Virus record (IMG/VR): IMGVR_UViG_3300032092_000074
Span: 1 to 41,308 of that record
From: a virus
Length of the DNA: 41,308 bases
Direction: 5' to 3' (one strand)
Notes under the pieces: model-generated
Told to the model about the DNA's origin: nothing
The model's input: the letters and a program-made list of their open reading frames with translations, nothing else
The model's database searches: none
Shown here: one piece after another, positions 1 through 41,308 of the stretch
Position numbering within the stretch: the stretch's first letter is position 1
How the letters are laid out: every line of letters begins with the position of its first letter
Made by a program: the position numbers and the translations under genes

Positions 1-149
1 CCTGCCCCGTGACAGCGGTTTGTGACAGTGTGACAGGGCTTGTCACAAATTTTGTCACGCCCTAAACCCTTCATTTTCAACGCTTTACTACTACTACTAC
101 TACTTGTGACAAGAAATAATAATATACATATAAGAGAGTCAATCAAAAG
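1..149. repeat. Terminal direct repeat, left copy
   Basis: These 149 bases recur at 41160-41308. The only difference is C at 127 against A at 41286. A repeat at both ends of a contig usually marks a circular or terminally redundant phage genome. The mismatch means the overlap is not a pure assembly k-mer; it may be a population variant or an error near a contig end. Confidence 0.95.
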
Positions 150-304
150 GGGGGTGGTATAGGGGGTGGGGTGCTGTAAATGGGTCAATATATGTCTATG
201 ATTCGAAAAATCCTGTCACAGACGGTTTTTTGCGTCGTAAGTGCCTGATTTTGTGGGGTTTAACCTGTGACAAAGTGGGTGTCACAAGGGCGTCACCTGT
301 GACA
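9..304. repeat. GTGACA/TGTCAC motif cluster
   Basis: GTGACA or its complement occurs at 9, 22, 30, 41, 53, 106, 214, 267, 280 and 299, often extended to TTGTGACAA-like near-palindromes. A (TAC)6 microsatellite lies at 86-103 inside the cluster. No gene is visible here. Short repeats in both orientations near the divergence of two operons are typical of initiator (iteron) or regulator binding sites. Which of these applies is inference. Confidence 0.7.
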
Positions 305-435
305 AAGGCCCTTTGGAGAAAAAAATTTCAGGGGTGTGGATGCGTCGTTTCTTTGCGCCAACGCTCTCTTCGGACCCCCTCCCCCCGGTCTTATGACGCA
401 TAATACAAATTCGCTTATAGCGCGCTTATCCATGC

Positions 436-568
436 GGCTATTGAGTCGCATAGAAACCGGCTATCAAACCGGCTATTGCATGGCATAAAAACCTATGCGG
501 AAACGCTTATCTAGCGGGCTATCAAGCAGGCTAACGGATAAATAATGCGAGGCTATAGGATAGGCTAT
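436..568. repeat. GGCTAT repeat cluster
   Basis: GGCTAT occurs at 436, 459, 471, 517, 551 and 563, with GGCTAA at 529, mostly followed by C/T-A-A-like bases. CGCTTAT motifs at 412, 423 and 504 lie beside them. The spacing is irregular. This is the second repeat family in the non-coding region 1-916 and fits protein-binding sites in an origin or packaging region. Confidence 0.6.
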
Positions 569-614
569 CGAGCGGCACAACACTGGCGCAAATCGGGCGG
601 CACGCGCGCGCCGA

Positions 615-715
615 GAGTGTTACACAAACGCGCAAGAAACGTCTGTTACACAAACGAGTGCTACACAAGCGAGTGTTACACAAGCGAGTGTTACACAATC
701 GAGTGTTTAAACAAA
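615..715. repeat. 15-bp tandem repeat array
   Basis: Five contiguous 15-base units run from 641 to 715 (641, 656, 671, 686, 701), with consensus GAGTGTTACACAAGC. A sixth copy sits apart at 615-629. The last unit is degenerate (GAGTGTTTAAACAAA). There are no spacers, so this is not CRISPR. Overlapping short ORFs here are Cys-rich artefacts of the repeat. A tandem iteron array is the likeliest reading, with the GTGACA and GGCTAT families just upstream. Confidence 0.8.
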
Positions 716-810
716 TGCCAGCAAACCGCGCTCGGCGTGTGGTTTTGTATAAAAAAGCGCGAAAAGTGCGGGGAAAATACAATTGAGCGTGAATGCCTAA
801 GGTGCGACGC

Positions 811-851
811 ATTTGAACGCCGTTCAGATTTAATTTGAACGCTGTTTAGAT
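811..851. promoter_or_regulatory. Paired 19-bp direct repeat, candidate operators
   Basis: ATTTGAACGCCGTTCAGAT (811-829) recurs at 833-851 with two changes. The copies are 22 bp apart, about two helical turns, and TGAACG-C-CGTTCA inside the first is a perfect inverted repeat. A TTGTCA hexamer at 860-865 could be a -35 box just downstream, but no good -10 follows at normal spacing. This is probably a repressor or activator site controlling the rightward genes that begin at 917. Confidence 0.45.
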
Positions 852-893
852 AATCGTTTTTGTCAAATCCGCCTCACTCTGCGCCTTATTGAG

Positions 894-906
894 ACTGAGT
901 CTCAGT
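894..906. promoter_or_regulatory. 13-bp palindrome before first gene
   Basis: ACTGAG-T-CTCAGT is a perfect inverted repeat ending 10 bases before the GTG start at 917. It could be an operator or a short 5'-UTR hairpin that affects initiation of the first gene. Confidence 0.4.
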
Positions 907-916
907 ATCAATTAAC

Positions 917-6126: not shown

Positions 6127-6471
6127 TTACTTGCGTTTAATCGTTATCTGAATCTCCTGCCCGTCTAGCGGGCCTTCATGAAAATCATAAACTGCGGAAT
6201 AGTCTTTCATTCCGTGCTCAACAAATAGATCAACGAGCGTTTGCAAAACATCATCTGCGTTGTCCTCAAAGTCACGCTTGGAAAGCTTCGTTGGGGATGC
6301 AGCAAACCCGTTGTTGTGCCCCGTAAAATCTTTCCCTCCCTGCGGATGCTCCGGGAACGCGAAGGAATTGATCTTTCCATTTTCCTGCCCATGGCGTGTT
6401 AGCAAAAATTCTAGCAACACTTGAATGGGAATTTGAAACTGCAACATATGAGTCGGTTGGTTTGATGCCAT
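6127..6471 (-). CDS. Hypothetical protein overlapping primase-helicase 3' end
   Basis: A 114-codon frame, last of the leftward replication operon. It overlaps the end of the 840-aa primase-helicase by 200 bases in another frame. Its own unique part (about residue 67 on) reads as a normal acidic protein ending DGQEIQITIKRK. No ATG lies between codons 9 and 88, so either the long overlap is used or initiation is at a TTG/GTG inside the overlap. I do not recognise the family. The bidirectional terminator begins immediately after its stop. Confidence 0.6.
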   Translation of the reverse strand: MASNQPTHMLQFQIPIQVLLEFLLTRHGQENGKINSFAFPEHPQGGKDFTGHNNGFAASPTKLSKRDFEDNADDVLQTLVDLFVEHGMKDYSAVYDFHEGPLDGQEIQITIKRK

Positions 6472-8794
6472 TGCGTATTAGGGTTTGGTTAAATTTTTCA
6501 TTGCCAGCAAACGCTCCATCGAGCAATTCGCCAACGCTAAGAGTTTCGTTAAGATCACCATCCACTTTGATTAGGTAGTCAAGCAAAGTCGAAAGCGCCT
6601 TGTGTTCGTCGCGATCAATATCGGTTGTCTCCCACGTTGTCCAGTCCTGTTGCGATACCCACTGCGCGGCAAACTCAGGCGTTACTTTTTTTGTGGACGT
6701 AAGAGAAAACGCACCTGCCAGTAACGTGCCTAACTGGTCACCGCTGCGCTGATCCCCAAGAAATGCAGCTACCGCGGAAGCAAACACCATCGCGTTATCC
6801 CGTATCGTCACAGCGTTTGCTAGAGCACGCGCCCTAAGAGAGTCGCACCAATCAGGATTCCCTGTAGTGACATTGCGAAGCTCCTTGAGTCTGTCAAAAC
6901 TCGCTGTGTCATTTCGTTTGAACAACTCAAGCGGCGTTATGCGCGACACGTCACTCCGCATGACTGCCGCCACACCGATGGACGAAAAACAAAAACACGT
7001 CCTGAGCATAAATTCCATAGCGTTCCCCGATGCAGTACCTTTAACGATGGAAGCGCCTGTCTCTGAAGAGCACCCACGGGCAAGCTCAAGGATTTTTTGG
7101 ATGCGCATTTGCCCCACTTTATCCTCAGTCTCCGCTTCATCTAAGATCACAGGCAACGAATCACTCCCAAGAATCTGCCTGATTCCCGCCTCAGTAGTCG
7201 CTGACTGCACGTTAATCACTCCACGCCCCAACATGGGCAACAAGACGTTAAACAAAATCCAACTCTTGCCGGAGCCGCTTGGACCGTTGAGCCAAATATG
7301 GGGACGCCAGCCAAGAACGCCAGCGATAGGAGCCAAGACAAGCCAGCCTGAAAACAGTTTGGCGTTCAACTTGTTCTTCCATGCCATCAAATCGCATAGC
7401 TCAATCAACTTTGCGGCCTCGGCATTTGACGCGGGGTCATTAGTGGGGCACGGTGTTCGATGCGAAAGCTCATACACAAAGCTAGTCTCAAATTCATGGA
7501 CGTGCAGAAGCTGACCATCCACAAGGAGCTTGTCGCCTAAGTGATACACAACTCGGTTTTCGTCGATCCACGCGCCGCGCCCGCGAATTGAGCGAGGCGA
7601 AAAAACACCCGTCCTATGCGCCTGCTGAATCAACGAGTTTGCTGCGGCCTTCCAGTTTGCGCCGTTTTCACCTGCAAACATACCTTCCCACCAGTTAGCA
7701 GGAGCAAGCTGAAGAAGCTGAAGCTCTCTGTGTTCGTTGGCACCAAGACTGACAATCTGCGCGGACCCGTTTGGAAGGTAAAAATATGACCCCTTATCGT
7801 ATCCAAGAATACGAAACTGCGAACGCGCCTCCTGCATCGGCTCCGATTCTTGAATGACGGCGGATTCCGGCTCAGGTTCAGGCTCAGGCTCTAAACCGCG
7901 CTTCAAAAACTCCCGCACTGCCCCTGGCCCTTGTTGGAAAATATCCCACCCGTCATGACCTTCAGGGTAGTCGCCATGCCATTTAATAACCTGCACTTTG
8001 CTCGCAGAATTACTGAGGATGTCTGCGATGCCTTCAGCGGCCTTCTTCCCGGGCTCATCGTTGTCTGGCCATATTACCACGTCACGTTCTGCCAGCGGTA
8101 GCCAGTTCACGGAGCGAAACCCAGACGCACCACCCGGCCACGAAATCACCACAACCTGCAAAAACATTTGTTGTAACGCCCCAACGCATTTCTCTCCTTC
8201 AACAATCAAGACCCGCGCTGCGGGATTTTGAGCTAGTTTATCGAGTCCATACAACGGGCGAGGCTTGGCAAAACTCTTCCAGCGCCAAACAACTTCTAAA
8301 TCTTCGTTCAACCAAGGGGTGTATGGGGCAAACGTTTTCTTCCCATTTTTTTCAAACCTAAGGATGTATCCAAGGATCTCGCCTTTCGGGCCGTGATATG
8401 TATGCGCGGATGTCGCCAAGCCGTGCTTAGGGTGAGCCGGGACCGTCTCAGCAAACTCTGGCAAAACAGAAGTGGGCGTGAATCCATCATCGTCTTTTTC
8501 AAGTGGCTCCATGATTGGCGAATCCATCATTGCGGCTAATTTCCTTGCGGCGTCTAGCTGGGTAATCCCATCCTTAGCTGCTAGAAGTGACGTAAGATCC
8601 CCGCCCTGCTGGCCTGCGGCAAAATCTGCCCATTTCCCTGTATGAATGTTAATCGAAAGGCTCTTCCCGGCTTCGCCATTTAGCGACCCCACAACAAACT
8701 CAGGACCGCGCCGCTTACCAAGGGGAAACATAGCGACAAGAATTGCCTCCGCAAATTGCAAGGCAGTCGCGTTAATTGATTTAAAATCTATCAT
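6272..8794 (-). CDS. Toprim primase-helicase (DUF927-like replicative protein)
   Basis: An 840-aa replication protein. The N-terminus (1-90) resembles the DNA-binding region of phage primases but lacks the usual Cys zinc ribbon. A Toprim domain follows, with VEGEKC (198-203) and DNDEPG (244-249), the acidic residues that bind metal for primer synthesis. An acidic Pro-Glu repeat linker (302-310) leads to a helicase-type ATPase with Walker A GPSGSGKS (504-511) and Walker B VILDEAE (549-555), similar to DUF927-type modules. It should prime and unwind phage DNA. Since no DNA polymerase is encoded, it presumably recruits the host replisome. Its ATG overlaps the upstream Lar-like gene's stop by four bases. 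Confidence 0.9.
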   Translation of the reverse strand: MIDFKSINATALQFAEAILVAMFPLGKRRGPEFVVGSLNGEAGKSLSINIHTGKWADFAAGQQGGDLTSLLAAKDGITQLDAARKLAAMMDSPIMEPLEKDDDGFTPTSVLPEFAETVPAHPKHGLATSAHTYHGPKGEILGYILRFEKNGKKTFAPYTPWLNEDLEVVWRWKSFAKPRPLYGLDKLAQNPAARVLIVEGEKCVGALQQMFLQVVVISWPGGASGFRSVNWLPLAERDVVIWPDNDEPGKKAAEGIADILSNSASKVQVIKWHGDYPEGHDGWDIFQQGPGAVREFLKRGLEPEPEPEPESAVIQESEPMQEARSQFRILGYDKGSYFYLPNGSAQIVSLGANEHRELQLLQLAPANWWEGMFAGENGANWKAAANSLIQQAHRTGVFSPRSIRGRGAWIDENRVVYHLGDKLLVDGQLLHVHEFETSFVYELSHRTPCPTNDPASNAEAAKLIELCDLMAWKNKLNAKLFSGWLVLAPIAGVLGWRPHIWLNGPSGSGKSWILFNVLLPMLGRGVINVQSATTEAGIRQILGSDSLPVILDEAETEDKVGQMRIQKILELARGCSSETGASIVKGTASGNAMEFMLRTCFCFSSIGVAAVMRSDVSRITPLELFKRNDTASFDRLKELRNVTTGNPDWCDSLRARALANAVTIRDNAMVFASAVAAFLGDQRSGDQLGTLLAGAFSLTSTKKVTPEFAAQWVSQQDWTTWETTDIDRDEHKALSTLLDYLIKVDGDLNETLSVGELLDGAFAGNEKFNQTLIRNGIKPTDSYVAVSNSHSSVARIFANTPWAGKWKDQFLRVPGASAGRERFYGAQQRVCCIPNEAFQA

Positions 8795-8973: not shown

Positions 8974-9152
8974 GAGTTTTTAACGCGAGTGTTCCAAGTT
9001 TTAACCAATTTATTTTTAATATATCCTAATAATTCAGCAGGGCATTTTGTGCATACAACACCATAATGAATCATATCAATACCCCGCGCAATTATAGTCG
9101 CATTTGCACCACAAAAAGGACACGGCAGTAATTTAATTTCTTCGTTGTTCAT
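8970..9152 (-). CDS. Lar-like zinc protein, first copy
   Basis: A 60-aa protein with Cys11-Pro-Phe-Cys14, Cys34-Thr-Lys-Cys37 and Trp-Asn-Thr-Arg (53-56), matching the Lar restriction-alleviation family pattern. Placement inside the replication operon fits a protein expressed early, when incoming DNA is exposed to host restriction. Whether this copy acts on restriction is unknown. The spacing between its Cys pairs (19 residues) differs from that of its neighbour (16), so the copies have diverged outside the shared N-terminal block. Confidence 0.87.
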   Translation of the reverse strand: MNNEEIKLLPCPFCGANATIIARGIDMIHYGVVCTKCPAELLGYIKNKLVKTWNTRVKNS

Positions 9153-9487
9153 ACAATTTGCTTCGCTTCTTCAACGCTGCGGGCAATCAGTGAGATACCT
9201 CCTCCGTCACTCACTTGCTTTAGCCAGTTGCTTTGCTCAGGAGAAACCCGCCCTGTAGGCGTCTTAATTTCCACGCTCGTAAACACGGCCAGCTTCTTCC
9301 CAACCATGTCGGGCGTAATTTCTACGGTTTTCCACCCAATCAAATCTGCGCTTCCTTTGGCGAGTCCAGAGGACACGACGCGCCCGTCTTGGAGCTTGTA
9401 AGTGCCGACTTGATTCCTGAAAAGCCGAATGTTTTTCTGTCCCCCAAGAAACCTGTGAATTTGTGTTTGTAGATCTTTTTCGTTCAT
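9149..9487 (-). CDS. VRR-NUC domain nuclease
   Basis: A 112-aa protein. The start is the ATG at 9487, which overlaps the helicase stop as ATGA; the longer frame from 9520 would run into the helicase gene. It shows a VRR-NUC pattern: an N-terminal Glu in a helix, GSADLIGW with the catalytic Asp, then VEIKTPTGRVSPEQ supplying the E-x-K pair, and WLKQVSDGGG. VRR-NUC proteins are PD-(D/E)XK-type nucleases, often next to helicases in phages, and are thought to process structured DNA such as junctions. Its coupling to a DEAD/DEAH helicase here suggests they work together. Confidence 0.92.
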   Translation of the reverse strand: MNEKDLQTQIHRFLGGQKNIRLFRNQVGTYKLQDGRVVSSGLAKGSADLIGWKTVEITPDMVGKKLAVFTSVEIKTPTGRVSPEQSNWLKQVSDGGGISLIARSVEEAKQIV

Positions 9488-10839
9488 TTTTGTCTGCCTC
9501 TCAAAACGTGTCCCGCCCATGCGTAGGGGTTTCGATACCCGCGCAACTTCGCAAGGTCAATTAGATCCTGAAGAGTTTGCGCTTTTCCTTGTTCCTTCTT
9601 GTGTTCGCGGCGCGCCTGTAACTCTACAAGCTCCCCGTCAACATGTTCAATTTCCCGGGGTTTAGGCGCGTAAACATGCCCGCACTGGGGGCATTCAGGA
9701 AGCACGGCGTGCACGCAATAACACTGCGGACACTGCTTGTTTCGCTCGCCACCTGAGGCCTTCTTACTCTTCTTGGAAGCACCCTCAAGGCTCCATTCCC
9801 GAGGCTCCTCCGCCAATCCATGCCGCATACAGTTTCCTACGTGGTCAAGGATGATCGCCCTGCTTTTGTCTTTGTGGGTTCGCAGCACGCGCCCAACCTG
9901 CTGAAGATGTAACCCCAGGCTCTGCGTTGCACGAAGCAAAATCGCCGTCGTCACAACTGGCAAATCAAACCCCTCGCTAATGATGTCGCACGATGTTAAA
10001 CCGTGTATCTTCCCACTTGCCAAGTCCGCAACCCTCTGCTTGCGAATCTCTGGAGCTAGTGTCCCGTCCAAAACCTCGAACCTATAACCTGCCGAGCAAA
10101 ACTGCGCCGCAACGTCCGTAGCGTGCCGCACAGACGCACAAAACACAACTGCGGGCAAGCCGTCGCTCAGTTTCTTGTAATGACTCACTGCGCATCCAGT
10201 AATTACCGGAGTGTTTAACGCCTGTTCTAACTGACGTTGGTCAAAATCACCCATGCGTGTTTTTACGCTCGTGAGGTCAACTTGTGACGGGGCGTAATAA
10301 ACCGGGCGGCAAAGGAAGTCAGAGTCAATTAGTGTCTGCACATCAGGGCCGAAAACGATGTCATCAAAAATGTCACCAAGTCCTTTTCCGTCCAATCGTT
10401 GCGGCGTTGCCGTCACCCCGATGATCTTCGCGTTAGGGAATAGCTCAATGACTTTTTTCCAGCTTCCCGCTGCGGCATGATGCGCTTCGTCGATCACAAT
10501 CAGATCCACGGGAAGCAGCTTTTCCAAGCGTCTAACGACTGTTTGCACACTAGCAAGCTGCACCAGATGCGCCGGGTCAGGCGTCCTGCCTGCTGCGATG
10601 ATCCCGTGCGGGACTCCCATCCCGTCCAAAGCCGCGTGAGTTTGAGCAAGCAACTCGGCACGATGGACAAGCAAAAGCACGCGGTTACCCTTCGATGCTG
10701 CATTTTGTGTAACATACGAAAAAATGACCGTTTTCCCTGCGCCAGTGGGGGCAACAAGTAGCGGGGCTTTTTTCCCGCCACGGAACGACTGGCGAAGAGC
10801 TTCAACAGCTTCTTGCTGGTATGGTCGAAGGCTAAACAT
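9484..10839 (-). CDS. DEAD/DEAH-box superfamily 2 helicase
   Basis: A 451-aa protein starting MFSLRPYQQEAV, the typical Q-x-x-A opening. Motif I is APTGAGKT (30-37), motif II DEAH (117-120), motif III TAT (143-145) and motif VI QQVGRVLR (313-320). A C-terminal zinc ribbon follows with Cys370, Cys373, Cys383 and Cys386. The family comprises ATP-driven nucleic-acid unwinding enzymes of the RecQ/RecG/type I restriction-like SF2 group. I chose the ATG at 10839, overlapping the previous stop by eight bases, over one at 10869. It probably remodels forks or recombination intermediates with the downstream VRR-NUC nuclease. Confidence 0.93.
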   Translation of the reverse strand: MFSLRPYQQEAVEALRQSFRGGKKAPLLVAPTGAGKTVIFSYVTQNAASKGNRVLLLVHRAELLAQTHAALDGMGVPHGIIAAGRTPDPAHLVQLASVQTVVRRLEKLLPVDLIVIDEAHHAAAGSWKKVIELFPNAKIIGVTATPQRLDGKGLGDIFDDIVFGPDVQTLIDSDFLCRPVYYAPSQVDLTSVKTRMGDFDQRQLEQALNTPVITGCAVSHYKKLSDGLPAVVFCASVRHATDVAAQFCSAGYRFEVLDGTLAPEIRKQRVADLASGKIHGLTSCDIISEGFDLPVVTTAILLRATQSLGLHLQQVGRVLRTHKDKSRAIILDHVGNCMRHGLAEEPREWSLEGASKKSKKASGGERNKQCPQCYCVHAVLPECPQCGHVYAPKPREIEHVDGELVELQARREHKKEQGKAQTLQDLIDLAKLRGYRNPYAWAGHVLRGRQK

Positions 10840-11074
10840 TGTTTTCGGAGTAAAAATCTTCAAAAGCAAACCCCCATTGAAGCCGAATTGACCCTAGACT
10901 CAAATTCCATCGGGGTCTGCCGTCGTAATGCCATTTGTAAAACACAGGCTCACCATACACGCGGGGCGCATCAAATTTAATGACAATAAAAACAGTTTCC
11001 AAACGCCTCCATCTTTCGCCGTTTTCGATTTCGTCAATCACACACCCCGGCAACCGGAAATTCAGGCTAAACAT
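10832..11074 (-). CDS. Hypothetical protein
   Basis: An 80-aa protein; the ATG at 11074 overlaps the preceding HTH gene's stop by eight bases (ATGTTTAG), and an ATG at 11080 is also possible. The same eight-base junction recurs at its own 3' end with the helicase. It is rich in aromatics and Arg (for example FYKWHYDGRPRWN) and probably beta-structured. No family is recognised. It lies second in the replication operon. Confidence 0.7.
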   Translation of the reverse strand: MFSLNFRLPGCVIDEIENGERWRRLETVFIVIKFDAPRVYGEPVFYKWHYDGRPRWNLSLGSIRLQWGFAFEDFYSENNV

Positions 11075-12072: not shown

Positions 12073-12870
12073 ATGAAAACATCAGAAAGTATCACTAAAA
12101 TCGCAGAAGCATTAACCAAGGCACAAGCGGCCATGAAGCCAGCTTTGAAGGACTCAAGGAACCCGCATTTCAATTCCAAGTATGCGGATCTAACCAGCGT
12201 GTGGGACGCAATCCGAGCACCGCTAACCGACAACGGCTTGAGCGTGTTGCAGCTTGTCGGCACCAACGAGGCGGAGAAAACCACACTCACGACACGAGTG
12301 CTGCACGTTTCTGGCGAGTGGATCGAATCGACGTGGGCAATCCCTATCGGGAAGCAAGATCCTCAAGGGTTAGGTTCTGCGTTGTCGTATGCGCGCCGCT
12401 ACGCTCTAGCCGCCGCTGTGGGCGTCGTGCAGGATGATGACGACGCTAATGCGGCGATGCCTGCTGCGAAGCCTGCCCAAGAGTTTCAACCAAAGCATTT
12501 CTCGCTAGCAGACGCTATTGACGAAATTCAGGCGTCAACCACACTAGAGGAGCTTCAGTCTAAATATACTAGGATTTACAATGAAGCGAAAGCCAGCAAA
12601 GCCAGCTTTATGGACTTTCACATCGGACAGATAGCTGTTGACGAAATTCAGGCGTCAACCACACTAGAGGAGCTTCAGTCTAAATATACTAGGATTTACA
12701 ATGAAGCGAAAGCCAGCAAAGCCAGCTTTATGGACTCTCACATCGGACAGATAGCTGCCGCAAAGGACGAAATGAAAGAGAAGCTTGGGGCCGCGCCTGT
12801 CCGTAAATATGAACTTAAAACCTTAGCGAAACCTACTGTGAAAACTGAAGTTGAAGGAGAATGGAAATGA
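12073..12870 (+). CDS. erf: ERF-family single-strand annealing protein
   Basis: 265 aa from the ATG at 12073. Residues 1 to about 130 match the ERF family, with KIAEALTKAQAAM, NPHFNSKYADLTSVWDAIR and the GSALSYARRYAL stretch typical of the core. ERF proteins anneal complementary single strands, here presumably those made by the upstream exonuclease. The C-terminal part contains a 40-residue direct repeat encoded by a near-perfect 120-bp tandem duplication (12518-12757). The repeat lies outside the annealing core, so activity may be kept. The stop overlaps the next ATG as ATGA. Confidence 0.93.
   Translation: MKTSESITKIAEALTKAQAAMKPALKDSRNPHFNSKYADLTSVWDAIRAPLTDNGLSVLQLVGTNEAEKTTLTTRVLHVSGEWIESTWAIPIGKQDPQGLGSALSYARRYALAAAVGVVQDDDDANAAMPAAKPAQEFQPKHFSLADAIDEIQASTTLEELQSKYTRIYNEAKASKASFMDFHIGQIAVDEIQASTTLEELQSKYTRIYNEAKASKASFMDSHIGQIAAAKDEMKEKLGAAPVRKYELKTLAKPTVKTEVEGEWK
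12518..12757 (+). repeat. 120-bp in-frame tandem duplication in ERF gene
   Basis: Copies at 12518-12637 and 12638-12757 differ at one base (T12617 against C12737), changing Phe to Ser. Each copy encodes 40 residues starting about DEIQASTTLEELQ. Such identity implies a very recent event. Confidence 0.97.
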
Positions 12871-16553: not shown

Positions 16554-16816
16554 TGGCTTACTGCGTGATGAGAGCAAGCCGGGTGTTAGGCAAAAACAAA
16601 TTGCCTCGCCCTAAGCTTGTCACTAAACCCGTGTTTGTTGGGACTCGCGTCCAGTGCGAAATCTGGATTGAGGATCACGCAAACGACAAAGAAAACACGA
16701 GCGACGAGAATATCTCTATCAAGCTTTCAGTAAATCACCTTAGAAAAAATGGGCAGAAAGAAAAAACAAGTCTCAGACCCGGAAACGGAAGTCGAGCCCC
16801 CAAAGAAAAAATATAG
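16553..16816 (+). CDS. Hypothetical basic protein
   Basis: An 87-aa protein starting at a TAATG overlap. The N-terminus (MAYCVMRASRVLGKNKLP) is basic; the middle holds FVGTRVQCEIWIEDH. The last 22 codons overlap the next gene in another frame, so the C-terminal tail (KEKTSLRPGNGSRAPKEKI) is low-complexity and probably not conserved. No family is recognised. Confidence 0.65.
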   Translation: MAYCVMRASRVLGKNKLPRPKLVTKPVFVGTRVQCEIWIEDHANDKENTSDENISIKLSVNHLRKNGQKEKTSLRPGNGSRAPKEKI

Positions 16817-17333
16817 CTCTCCCGAGGCTAGAGCGCGCCAGTTAGCAGGGTTGTCCGGTGTCCGCATCAAGGATTATGTTGACGTGGATATGGAAAAAAC
16901 CAACGGTAAAGGAATGCTGGCGACCGTCCCAGAGGAGACCAAAAAGAAAGTGATCGAAATGTTCATGGGTGGCGCAACGATCGTTGCGATTGCCCGTGAG
17001 ACAAACCTGCACCACGAAACGGTTGAGCTAATCAAACGGGCGCAGCTTGACGTTGATAGCCAGTTTCGTAACGCGGTTCACAAGGCGTCCATACGCGAAA
17101 AGCTTCAGCACGTGGCGCAAGGCACGGCGGACAGGCTTATTGACCTTATGGACGAGATGAGCGCCAAGGACGCGGCAATTGCGCTTGGCATCGTGATGGA
17201 CAAACTAGCAGCGATAGAGAAAGACAAATCGGCGGAAGTGCTTCACCAGCATATCCACTTGCATTCAACCAAAGACATCAGTATCGCATTTGACTCTGCG
17301 CTTCGCGGCGTGATGCCACCACAAGAAAAATAA
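16749..17333 (+). CDS. Helix-turn-helix protein, small-terminase candidate
   Basis: A 194-aa protein. After a basic, disordered N-terminus (about 40 residues), PEETKKKVIEMFMGGATIVA followed by IARETNLHHETVELIKRAQ fits a helix-turn-helix. The middle is a long helical stretch (ADRLIDLMDEMSAKDAAIAL) of the kind that assembles oligomers in small terminase subunits. The C-terminus has a His-rich HQHIHLH. A DNA-recognition domain plus oligomerisation helices suits the DNA-recognition subunit of the packaging motor, though it lies far from the large terminase (38512). A regulator is the alternative. Confidence 0.7.
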   Translation: MGRKKKQVSDPETEVEPPKKKYSSPEARARQLAGLSGVRIKDYVDVDMEKTNGKGMLATVPEETKKKVIEMFMGGATIVAIARETNLHHETVELIKRAQLDVDSQFRNAVHKASIREKLQHVAQGTADRLIDLMDEMSAKDAAIALGIVMDKLAAIEKDKSAEVLHQHIHLHSTKDISIAFDSALRGVMPPQEK

Positions 17334-36350: not shown

Positions 36351-38476
36351 GCTGTAGGTTGCTGGCCTTGAATCTGACTAACTCCAATGCGCCCAATTTG
36401 CGCGTTTTGCTGCTGCATAATGCTCATTTGCAGGCTTTTCACGTAGTTTTGGAACAACGCTTGAAAATTCTGGTCCTGCTGAAGTGCCGCCTGAGCCTTA
36501 GGATTACTCTGAATAATCTGCTGCGCATACTGCATTTTAGTCGAAGCGGCAGGATCGTTTTCTTGATACAGTGCCTCATTACCTAAGAGCATAAGGGCAA
36601 TATCGCTTTGAACGTCCTTAAACATTTTTTGACTAGCCTGCTCCTGATTAACAATCAAATCGCTCGCCATTTCAGGCGCAACAGCTCGAATCAACATTTC
36701 TGTGATTCTGTTCTTATTAAGAACGCCGCCAGTGTCCATTTGGCTAATTTTGGTCAACCCTTCAATTTTGCGAGTCAAATGCTCTGGATCAAGATCAAGA
36801 ATATCAAACCGGATATTTAAATCAAATTCGTTGTGAATATCGGACACGTCATCCGGCAAAGTGCCTCCTGTGATCCGTTGAATTTCTTCAGGTGCCATAA
36901 ACTGGCAGCACAGCGAAAACATCTGCCGGAACACATTGCGCCATGCCATTAGCCAGCTATTAACAAGCATCTGCTGCATCATCTGCGTTTTTACCGGAGG
37001 CACCAACATGTTAGTTGTGCCAAAATAAGCCGCATGGTTAGCTTCAACCCGTTCAATCAATTTAAACGCCACGCTTGGCTCTCTAGCTGGCGGGTCCATA
37101 AACGTGTAATCGTTTTGGTTTGTTACCGGTAGCGGCAAACCCGGAGCGATTTTGTTAATCGCCCCAATTCGTTTAACAACCTTAATGGGCGGCAGTGTAG
37201 AAAACGCGGTGTGATCCCGAATCGAATCGTGCTGCGCTTTAATTTCATCCTGATCCGTGCTAGCCAATTCAGGAACACCACGGGTATCAGTAATTGCCCT
37301 GCGCAACTGTTCCCTGCGAAACTCTACAAACGGGTATTCACCGTGCGCATAATCAAGACGTTCGTGCTTGGCGTAAGAACTACCATCTTCATTTCGATTA
37401 GAAGCCGCCTGAGGACATAGAATCGTGTAAAAAATAGCAGGCGCGTCTCCATCCATGCTTTTGGTGTAAGCATAGACCACTTCAACCATGTTGTTATAGT
37501 TGGTGCCGTTATACACCAGCATAGTTGTGGTAGGCAGCAGATTGATATTATAGAACGTGCTACTCTTACCCAACTGCTGAATTGCCTTTTCCACCCAGTC
37601 TGGGTTCCACCCTTCCGTGATGATTTTTTCACGAAGCTCAACTTCAGACATCCATGTTCGCCTAAAAATCACGCGGCTACGCTGCAAATCCGCCGTTTCA
37701 GGCGGGAAAATAATTTCGTCCCAAGGCTTAAGCGCCACAATCTCAGGAAGATTCCGGCTAACATACTCTTCCTCACGATAAGACTGCCCTGTCTCAGCTA
37801 GCTCCTTAACAATTCGTTTGGCGTCTTTTTTGGAGATACCCGGAGCCGTTGACGCAATAATTGAAGCGGCTTCTTCTGGGGATTCAACAATCAACCGTGG
37901 CAAATCTTGAATCGCCTGAACATCCGTCTGCTGCGAGACAGCGACAATCTCCTCAAGGCTAATAGGCCGGTTGCGTTTGGAAATCTTCTGGTTCCAGCCA
38001 ATAAAAAATGCGCTCCAGCCATACTGAACCGCATACTGAGCCGCAAGTTCCGCCTCTTTGCGGATTTCCTGCGGCATTTTGCAGTCTTTAACCCACTGCA
38101 TCAACGACGTGGCAATTCCGCTAATTTCAAGGTCGTTAAGTTCAACGCCTGAAGCCCGAATATCTGACCGTGAAAACGCGGTCATTAGAAGGGCCGTCAA
38201 TTCGTTACAAGTCGAATCAATCAACCTGTTACGCACATCGCTAGCACCTTCAAACGGCCAAGCAGGACTTCCTTCTGGGCGATTTTCAGAGTGTTTCTTG
38301 CCATCATCCGTCTGACCTGACCAGCGCGAAAACCGGATGTTATCAAATTTCGTCACCAAGTTACCCTGAGACGAATTAACCATGCTGCGGTTATATTCGC
38401 TCAATAGCTCGCCTACGTCTGGTTTATCAGACGCAATAGCAAGCGGATCAGTCGGTTCAAAATTTTTCATCGGCAT
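36347..38476 (-). CDS. Portal protein
   Basis: A 709-aa protein directly after the large terminase, at the position and size of P22-type portals. An ATG at codon 3 (38470) is an equally good start. WSGQTDDGKKHSENRPEGSP and AWPFEGASDVRNRLID near the N-terminus are typical for this portal group. The C-terminal 80 residues are Gln-rich helix (LQQDQNFQALFQNYVKSLQM), as in the barrel of P22-like portals. Twelve copies should form the DNA channel and terminase dock. Confidence 0.9.
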   Translation of the reverse strand: MPMKNFEPTDPLAIASDKPDVGELLSEYNRSMVNSSQGNLVTKFDNIRFSRWSGQTDDGKKHSENRPEGSPAWPFEGASDVRNRLIDSTCNELTALLMTAFSRSDIRASGVELNDLEISGIATSLMQWVKDCKMPQEIRKEAELAAQYAVQYGWSAFFIGWNQKISKRNRPISLEEIVAVSQQTDVQAIQDLPRLIVESPEEAASIIASTAPGISKKDAKRIVKELAETGQSYREEEYVSRNLPEIVALKPWDEIIFPPETADLQRSRVIFRRTWMSEVELREKIITEGWNPDWVEKAIQQLGKSSTFYNINLLPTTTMLVYNGTNYNNMVEVVYAYTKSMDGDAPAIFYTILCPQAASNRNEDGSSYAKHERLDYAHGEYPFVEFRREQLRRAITDTRGVPELASTDQDEIKAQHDSIRDHTAFSTLPPIKVVKRIGAINKIAPGLPLPVTNQNDYTFMDPPAREPSVAFKLIERVEANHAAYFGTTNMLVPPVKTQMMQQMLVNSWLMAWRNVFRQMFSLCCQFMAPEEIQRITGGTLPDDVSDIHNEFDLNIRFDILDLDPEHLTRKIEGLTKISQMDTGGVLNKNRITEMLIRAVAPEMASDLIVNQEQASQKMFKDVQSDIALMLLGNEALYQENDPAASTKMQYAQQIIQSNPKAQAALQQDQNFQALFQNYVKSLQMSIMQQQNAQIGRIGVSQIQGQQPTA

Positions 38477-38511: not shown

Positions 38512-40206
38512 CTAATAAGTTCCGGGCGCGTTCACTTTCTGCCAATTTTTACTAAAATCAGCGCCAATATGTTTAGGAGCCATAACAACCAGATACCCTA
38601 GAGCGTCAATTGGATCTTTAGATGCTCCTTTCTGGCCGTCGGCCCCGGTCCATTCGTTCATCGAATAAATCAGGTTCTGGCAACTTTCATGCACCATGAT
38701 TTTCGGGTGGTTAAACTCCCTGTGAAGCGGCTTTTCCCGGTCAAAACACAGCAAATCGTTAATCAGTAGCACCCGTTCATCCACTTTAACCGCTGCGCAC
38801 GGTGTAAAATACATGGGTTTTGTTGCCTGCGACAATAGATCAAGCAGCGTAACTCCGCCGTCCTTGGTAATCGTGTCCGTGCCTGCGCTCCGAGGGTCAA
38901 TGTATCGCTCGGCAATATCTTCTTCCCCCTCAAGCTCCACGATCATCTCACTATACTCATCCACGCCTTTTCCAGCTCCCTGCTTCTGAGCGGGTCCGGG
39001 TGAGCCGTCAGCTTTATCGGAGGGGACGGACCATTCGCCATAACTCTGATCTGGAAACTCTCTGTAAATCCAGATGATTCCATACTGATCCACACGCGCC
39101 CAGAGCATAAACCAGTTTCGAGCGCCAGCAGGGTCCGCCACCATGTAGTTAGTTCCTTCAGGAGCGCGTTCCATCACATCCTCAGTAAACATGTTATACT
39201 CACTGAACATTGGGAACTGCGTCCCCGTAGTCTGTTCCGCCCAGCCGTAGGCACGAATCTTAATGTCCCCTGTGCTGCGGCCTTTCAGGGTGGTTTTCAT
39301 CCGCTCCCAGTTATTATATGGGTTTAGCTTACTGTGAAACCACACAACGGAGTGTTTTCCGCTAAACGCCTCGGCATAAACCGGCATGTTACCGGGAGGC
39401 ACACCCACAACATTTTGATTTGGTAACAGTTCACTTTCGCGCCACTTTTTAATCTTACTCGTTGAAACGTAGGATTTAACCACCTGCGAATAACCAAGAA
39501 GCGGGGTGAACGTCACAAGCAGTTTCCCGTTCCTCGTCACCAACCGATACCGGAGCGTGTCCAACCAGTCGGATGGCACCAATTCATCGCACCACACGTA
39601 GTCCACCTCTGCGCCTTCAACCACTTTAATATCCTGAGAATAGTTCAGGAACCAAATCTGGTTCTTATTATAGACAGCAGTGTTGTCAGAAAACCCGTTT
39701 TTCTGAGTCCAAGAAACCTGCGTGTGTTTGCTGCGCTGTGCTGATTTTAGTTCTGACGGCAGATATTTATAAAACACGTTCTGCTGACTGCTGACACTCG
39801 TCATGTGGGTCGTGTGCAGGCACCAGATTCGAATTCCCCTATTATCAGAGCGTTCTTTTACCCATTCCGGGGCGTTCCCGCTCAAGTCTGCGCCTAAAAA
39901 CGCCTGCGCCATCCGTTTTGCCGCAAATTCCGACTTACTGCTCCGGTTTCCGCCAAGAATTAACAACTCATCGCAGCGGTTCAGCACAGAGTCCGCATCT
40001 CTCCATGAATCAAGGTCGTTTCCATATCGGCAAGGGTCCATCGACTCAGCTCGAATTCGCTCTTCTCTAATTAGAAGCAAATCGAGCACTTTTTGAGGAC
40101 CGACGTTCAGCATCATCTTGTGACGCTGCGCTTTGTCGAACGACGGCATCAACGGATGATCCGTCATTTTAAAGTTTAGCACCTTAGATTCAAGTTCTGG
40201 ATTCAT
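38512..40206 (-). CDS. terL: Terminase large subunit
   Basis: A 564-aa packaging motor. Walker A is GGNRSSKSE (85-93) and Walker B VDYVWCDE (201-208), giving the ATPase. The nuclease domain shows Asp358 in MVADPAGARNWFML, Asp437 in YIDPRSAG and Asp531/Asp534 in KDPIDALGY, the RNase H-like acidic set. It cuts concatemers and pumps DNA into the head through the portal. Its start overlaps the stop of the small gene before it by four bases. The packaging strategy (headful or site-specific) cannot be told from the motifs. Confidence 0.95.
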   Translation of the reverse strand: MNPELESKVLNFKMTDHPLMPSFDKAQRHKMMLNVGPQKVLDLLLIREERIRAESMDPCRYGNDLDSWRDADSVLNRCDELLILGGNRSSKSEFAAKRMAQAFLGADLSGNAPEWVKERSDNRGIRIWCLHTTHMTSVSSQQNVFYKYLPSELKSAQRSKHTQVSWTQKNGFSDNTAVYNKNQIWFLNYSQDIKVVEGAEVDYVWCDELVPSDWLDTLRYRLVTRNGKLLVTFTPLLGYSQVVKSYVSTSKIKKWRESELLPNQNVVGVPPGNMPVYAEAFSGKHSVVWFHSKLNPYNNWERMKTTLKGRSTGDIKIRAYGWAEQTTGTQFPMFSEYNMFTEDVMERAPEGTNYMVADPAGARNWFMLWARVDQYGIIWIYREFPDQSYGEWSVPSDKADGSPGPAQKQGAGKGVDEYSEMIVELEGEEDIAERYIDPRSAGTDTITKDGGVTLLDLLSQATKPMYFTPCAAVKVDERVLLINDLLCFDREKPLHREFNHPKIMVHESCQNLIYSMNEWTGADGQKGASKDPIDALGYLVVMAPKHIGADFSKNWQKVNAPGTY

Positions 40207-40465: not shown

Positions 40466-40996
40466 TTAGCCTTTAACAATAGTTCCATTTTTAACCATAA
40501 CGCGCATACCCGGCTTAATCTTGCCGAGCATTTTACCAGTGCGCACGGGCATATCGTTAATCAAAATAACAAATCTTTGATTCTTACAGAGCTTTTTAAC
40601 AACTTCATAGCCGCTTGTATTAAATTCATGATCTCCACATGGATTTTTAATAAAATCATCAGGATATTTCTCTTTAAGAATCTCCGCTTCATACACGCTC
40701 TCTTGCTCCAGTTCCGCAATCTTTTGTCGCAAGATCTCAACGGTATCCGCATCATGATGCAGTTCCAAGTTATGCGCCTCGACCACCAAATCGGGCGTTT
40801 CGGGCGTGACAGCGGGGGGCGTGACAGGCGGCGCAACTCGCCACTCGGGGTCAACCATCGACTCATGCCACCACAACTGCATGCCCTTGCCCCGGCGTCT
40901 CAACTCCCAGTGGTGCCCTTTGACGTAATCCGTGGCTTTGGCTTTCACCCCGGCGTTTTTCAAGTCGTTTTCGCTCAAACAAAATGCGGTTTTCAT
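40466..40996 (-). CDS. First gene of virion operon, possible DNA-binding protein
   Basis: A 176-aa protein. The N-terminal 55 residues (FCLSENDLKNAGVKAKATDY and HHWELRRRGKGMQLWWHES) are basic and aromatic. A Pro/Thr linker (PPVTPPAVTPETP) leads to a coiled coil (EILRQKIAELEQESVYEAEI) and a beta-like C-terminal domain. The linker DNA carries GTGACA twice, the repeat of the adjacent intergenic region. Being first before terL and next to the repeat region, it is a second candidate for a small terminase or origin-binding protein. No family is recognised. Confidence 0.72.
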   Translation of the reverse strand: MKTAFCLSENDLKNAGVKAKATDYVKGHHWELRRRGKGMQLWWHESMVDPEWRVAPPVTPPAVTPETPDLVVEAHNLELHHDADTVEILRQKIAELEQESVYEAEILKEKYPDDFIKNPCGDHEFNTSGYEVVKKLCKNQRFVILINDMPVRTGKMLGKIKPGMRVMVKNGTIVKG

Positions 40997-41159: not shown

Positions 41160-41308
41160 CCTGCCCCGTGACAGCGGTTTGTGACAGTGTGACAGGGCTT
41201 GTCACAAATTTTGTCACGCCCTAAACCCTTCATTTTCAACGCTTTACTACTACTACTACTACTTGTGACAAGAAATAATAATATAAATATAAGAGAGTCA
41301 ATCAAAAG
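41160..41308. repeat. Terminal direct repeat, right copy
   Basis: This is the second copy of bases 1-149, with A at 41286 in place of C at 127. It joins the non-coding stretch 40997-41159, which holds the leftward promoter candidate and a further TGACA motif (41104), to the repeat-rich region at the left end. When closed, the intergenic region is about 1.08 kb. Confidence 0.95.

Follow-up and report, generated by a model that had tools for sequence, protein, structure and literature searches.

A GTGACA iteron cluster as the probable replication origin of a phage, with a TOPRIM primase-helicase as its likely initiator

The window, i.e. the whole stretch of 41,308 nucleotides analysed here (IMG/VR record IMGVR_UViG_3300032092_000074), displays a repeat-rich region between two diverging operons, with the late gene 40466-40996 (- strand) on one side and an early gene starting at 917 (+ strand) on the other. 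Positions 1-149 were repeated at 41160-41308 with one mismatch. The repeat region is therefore continuous on a closed genome of ~41,159 bp, and part of the GTGACA family is counted twice in the contig. A previous sequence-only reading had noticed three repeat families in this region, and all of them were found at the coordinates it gave. In each case the observed number exceeded the largest cluster obtained when the genome was shuffled 200 times with a first-order Markov model: ten exact GTGACA/TGTCAC sites against three in 310 bp, six GGCTAT sites against three in 140 bp and four copies of TGTTACACAA against one in 80 bp. The same reading considered the divergent region non-coding, as it appears to be: mechanically called ORFs of 93-97 codons overlap 531-838, but they were unsupported as genes because this stretch is just ~30% identical to relative L004 outside the 15-bp array. 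The circular genomes of the window and of relative G001 were both opened by the assembler inside the same short iteron region, possible causes being strain variation, depth or genuine genome ends.

The main comparison set consisted of 13 near-complete relatives whose TerL proteins were 65-70% identical to that of the window, terminase, portal and capsid being equally close. A second lineage (B) was composed of L007, L008 (= G001) and L094, with TerL ~70% identical. The features on which the analysis draws are the following.

9..58, both strands: left iteron group, with GTGACA at 9, 22 and 30 (+) and TGTCAC at 41 and 53 (-)
106..111, + strand: central GTGACA iteron beside the AT-rich stretch; a counterpart site occurs in L094
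111..134, no strand: AT-rich stretch between the iteron groups, candidate unwinding element
214..304, both strands: right iteron group, with TGTCAC at 214 and 280 (-) and GTGACA at 267 and 299 (+)
436..568, + strand: GGCTAT family, at 436, 459, 471, 517, 551 and 563, plus GGCTAA at 529
618..713, + strand (whole array 615-715): 15-bp array with core TGTTACACAA(G/A/T)CG, ending in the palindrome TGTTTAAACA at 704-713
6272..8794, - strand: TOPRIM primase-helicase of 840 aa, proposed initiator for the GTGACA iterons
6275..6634, - strand: residues 721-840 of the primase-helicase, its C-terminal domain, which is proposed to read the iterons; Arg822 lies at 6329-6331
9149..10869, - strand: VRR-NUC protein and SF2 helicase, the remainder of the replication module common to the window and G001
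16749..17333, + strand: protein with a weak HTH match, conserved in 13/13 relatives
40466..40996, - strand: first late-operon gene, whose family spans TerL relatives without GTGACA clusters
41168..41270, no strand: initial part of the iteron cluster again, owing to the redundant contig ends

The three families are not equivalent, and the sequence-only reading over-unified them. As far as each was covered, they occurred in the same order in close relatives L002-L004, and L004, which covers all three, served as comparison sequence. Identity to L004 was 97% over 1-320, 72% over the GGCTAT stretch and 87% over the 15-bp array. Among the three families, a significant difference between site and non-site conservation was observed for the array only, its core being 96% identical versus 55% between units (p=8e-7); on this conservation, the array is under selection. 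In the GTGACA stretch, sites and surroundings were conserved alike. The idea that each family binds a different protein was not established, the GGCTAT sites being conserved to no greater degree than the intervening bases. No GGCTAT cluster was found in the corresponding stretch of L007 and L094, and this family is lineage-specific.

The array unit, TGTTACACAAGCGAG, recurs at 15-bp spacing, with the first copy lying 26 bp upstream of the rest. Among viral contigs, the array pair was found in L004 only, and a search for the unit as an exact 16-mer returned seven single matches and no arrays, which is chance level. Perfect DnaA boxes (TTATTCACA), three in number, make up the G001 counterpart, and TGTTTAAACA brackets them, as it does the array of L004. 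Lineage B further displays a short array of TTGTTTATACACACGG (G001 37316-37372, L007 45-102), related in sequence to TGTTTAAACA. Closer to the first early gene, a near-palindrome, TGAACGCCGTTCA, occurs in two copies 22 bp apart at 811-851; L007 and L004 carry different two-copy repeats in its place, as would be expected of lineage-specific repressor operators. A perfect palindrome before the early gene (TGAGACTGAGTCTCA, 890-904) shows one change in L007 and L094. A scan with the early protein 1463-1906 found no relatives.

Among the 13 relatives, G001 alone possesses both the GTGACA region and the module of primase, SF2 helicase, VRR-NUC and Erf genes. The other 12 (TerL 65-69% identical) have neither the GTGACA repeats nor any of these four genes, and the repeats therefore go with replication rather than with packaging. 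Conservation of the repeats in relatives, which had been put forward as a check, held for GTGACA in L002-L004 and lineage B, while the repeats were absent from these 12 genomes. The left iteron group was near-invariant across L002-L004, and its TTGTCACAAAWTTTGTCACG is present in L007, L008 and L094 too. This lineage retains GTGACA sites around an AT-rich stretch, and with them a C-rich block and an array that has TGTTTAAACA on both sides.

The proteins encoded at 40466 and 16749 had been suggested for DNA-binding tests. Both are unlikely iteron binders, since their families are present in relatives lacking GTGACA clusters; the 16749..17333 protein is probably the small terminase subunit instead of an iteron binder. 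The 40466-40996 protein is conserved at both termini and variable in between, and is encoded upstream of TerL throughout the relatives. For the TerL-like protein itself (38512-40206), viral contigs yielded at least 184 relatives; its matches among named phages were only remote, and no sequence match in PHROGs or PDB was significant. As the association of repeats and primase module in close relatives could reflect one shared inheritance, the primase family was surveyed more widely.

A scan with the single primase sequence found no relatives, whereas an alignment query did, and loci of distant relatives were fetched with it from viral contigs and bacterial genomes. The primase was thus the one gene by which the surveyed loci were selected. 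A hexamer search that presupposed no motif (strong cluster: log10 p < -6) covered ~640 bp downstream of the primase stop in 128 loci and revealed a clustered hexamer in 48% of them; the corresponding figures were 2% for the upstream side of the primase, 1% for randomly chosen places and 3% for TerL loci. In about half of the family, the tested stretch contained no strong cluster. The clustered hexamers were mostly GTNACA or GTNAGA. Exact GTGACA clusters of 8-14 sites directly followed the primase in L144, L172, L174, L192, L220 and L280. The AT-richest 50 bp lay between iteron sites in 44/45 loci, and likewise in the window, where it reaches 78% AT. Sites to the left of the AT-rich stretch were mostly on the - strand (123 vs 57) and those to the right mostly on the + strand (136 vs 52), an opposed orientation that is clear family-wide, the window's own sites being less regular.

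The closest primases beyond G001 (L129-L140) are accompanied by different repeats (TGCAAAC, TCTGCA), so that iteron sequence can outpace protein change. The iteron of L186 was tentatively read as CTCACA; this was rejected, the motif being GTGAGG. The family has cultured members too: in Bdellovibrio phage phi1422 the primase is followed by 12 GGTAAC sites, and in Acinetobacter phage Acjo_20 it is preceded by 12 GTTACA sites. For PY223 and S-H1, a long-seed search found no repeats near the helicase/primase, whereas hexamer counting located clusters elsewhere in PY223 and a cluster after the S-H1 primase.

A relationship was observed between the primase-helicase and the iterons at the level of a single residue. 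Residue 822, picked out of 840 columns, was the top column for iteron base 5, with a normalised mutual information (MI) of 0.68 (next 0.31) on iteron motif calls that were our own; in a wider set, where two loci were probably read on the wrong strand, the values were 0.49 and 0.34. In this wider set, residue 822 is R or K in 44/45 loci with C at base 5, and Y, H or W in 11/13 loci with G. The two G-class exceptions, L151 and KLER1-1, have motifs that fit C if read on the other strand (CTGACA and CTTACA, respectively); other exceptions are L220 (S), and MQ-4 and L143 (both K). On a tree built from the helicase and TOPRIM parts only, residue 822 and base 5 switch together several times, kinship being handled by weighting and by counting such changes rather than by a full model. 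Four cultured phages examined afterwards fit the rule (phi1422, Acjo_20 and PY223 with R, S-H1 with W).

In the predicted model, residue 822 sits on a strand of the C-terminal hairpin. For iteron bases 2 and 3, no single residue of the C-terminal domain clearly stood out as a partner. Identity over this whole domain predicted iteron type slightly better than that of other domains (AUC 0.66 vs 0.59-0.63), with an AUC near 0.5 among distant pairs. Because whole-domain identity barely predicts iteron type, the claim that the protein reads the iterons rests on residue 822. From the covariation of this residue with base 5, the primase-helicase is named the likely iteron-binding initiator, which supplies a candidate where the sequence-only reading had recognised none.

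The AlphaFold model of the primase-helicase (pLDDT 90.8) matched SCCmec Cch (5dgk, at 9% identity), PriRep1 with dsDNA (7pds), SaPI5 (7ola), NrS-1 and D5/E5 helicases. In its predicted fold, the protein resembles self-loading SF3/D5-like AAA+ initiator helicases and is itself a predicted helicase. Families DUF927 and D5 were not among the Pfam matches listed for it, and a fold search with the C-terminal domain alone gave no significant match (best E 0.2). Phage P4 offers a parallel, as its alpha protein likewise unites primase, helicase and origin recognition; its ori-crr displays short iterons (GGTGAACA), and both primase type and iteron differ from those of the window. The mini-F RepE iterons (TGTGACAA...) have a motif similar to GTGACA. 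RepE is a Rep_3 initiator; scans of window proteins reported no such domain in those they covered.

The closest resemblance in layout is to PICI origins: situated immediately 3' of the initiator gene, they have an AT-rich region with an iteron set on each side (PMC6092414). In SaPIs the origin directly follows the gene of the Rep protein, which recognises it through the C-terminal domain (PMC7581432), and the opposite orientation of SaPI repeats has been proposed to guide two hexamers into a head-to-head arrangement (PMC9894130). The GTGACA region shares with these elements two sets of short opposed iterons around an AT-rich stretch, and the primase-helicase shares, in its predicted model, the self-loading AAA+ helicase fold. 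In many relatives the iterons lie directly 3' of the initiator gene as well, whereas in the window and G001 the GTGACA cluster is ~5 kb from the primase gene and not directly 3' of it; in the window lineage, the proposed origin is detached from this gene. A further difference is that the present elements are full-size tailed phages or prophage-like loci, whose helicase carries a fused TOPRIM primase. The direct repeats bound by SCCmec Cch2 follow the gene that encodes it; a separate A-family polymerase serves as primase in that system (PMC7581432), in contrast to the single protein of the window.

We estimate at about 85% the probability that the GTGACA cluster (~1-304) is a replication origin with the predicted primase-helicase (6272-8794) as its iteron-reading initiator, judging from sequence. 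The iteron-type origin suggested previously is well supported for this family, by primase-linked repeats, the AT-rich layout and the covariation of residue 822. Several primase-helicase molecules would bind the GTGACA iterons through their C-terminal domains and be loaded as hexameric helicases at both flanks of the AT-rich stretch 111-134. The hexamers would then melt this stretch, unwind outward and prime synthesis. Elongation would fall to a host polymerase, since none of the scanned window proteins was recognised as a DNA polymerase. That the iterons are bound, the stretch melted and the region used as an origin in the cell is what we infer from repeats, family linkage, layout, fold and covariation, and the SaPI/PICI initiation mechanism would apply here by analogy. 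Cumulative GC skew, proposed as another check, does reach its minimum at 0/41.16 kb; it was dropped as origin evidence because skew follows gene strand in this genome, which makes the minimum a weak indication.

Other functions for the cluster were weighed. With the first late gene ~170 bp downstream of it and TerL soon after, the cluster adjoins the terminase operon, and both assembled circular genomes open within its region, as might suit a pac or cos packaging site bound by the small terminase. However, the repeats are absent from the 12 near-complete relatives whose TerL, portal, capsid and 16749-type genes are equally close, whereas distant phages sharing just the primase have repeats next to it. 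The sites follow the replication module and not the terminase, and packaging, which the sequence-only reading had offered as the other possibility, is disfavoured as very unlikely. About as unlikely is an operator cluster for transcription factors of the diverging early and late operons, whose likeness to iterons would be secondary. Its divergent promoter position and the company of two other repeat families and a two-copy palindrome would suit such a role, but family-wide the sites follow the primase gene in neighbourhoods of many kinds, lie on both sides of an AT-rich stretch and show covariation with a residue of the primase.

A third, very unlikely alternative is that host DnaA drives the origin through the 15-bp array, the GTGACA sites being auxiliary. 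The three perfect DnaA boxes of the G001 array speak for it, as does the window unit TGTTACACA, one mismatch off TTWTNCACA. Yet this motif had no match in window 1-916 or in 50.7 kb of family origin regions, and the restriction of the array pair to L004 among viral contigs likewise argues against such a role.

Origins of most environmental phages are unknown, and a specific initiator-origin pair is proposed here for a broad family that includes the cultured phages phi1422 (Bdellovibrio), Acjo_20 (Acinetobacter) and S-H1 (Synechococcus). We are inclined to think that tailed phages and prophages include a large class, not described until now, that uses PICI-type origins with a TOPRIM primase-helicase, fast-changing iterons and a code between residue 822 and base pair 5. 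The proposed rule links one residue (822) to one base (5). If it is true, iterons change fast under this code while the layout stays, and related replicons diverge in origin specificity. A literature search of incomplete coverage found no description of iterons beside this TOPRIM primase-helicase phage family, and the novelty of the pairing is therefore provisional. An origin layout ascribed in the literature to phage satellites alone would be extended to full-size phages, and its occurrence there would bear on the source of satellite replicons.

Elsewhere in the window, a 120-bp unit occurs twice, 98% matched, at 12514-12757 within the gene of the Erf-like annealing protein.
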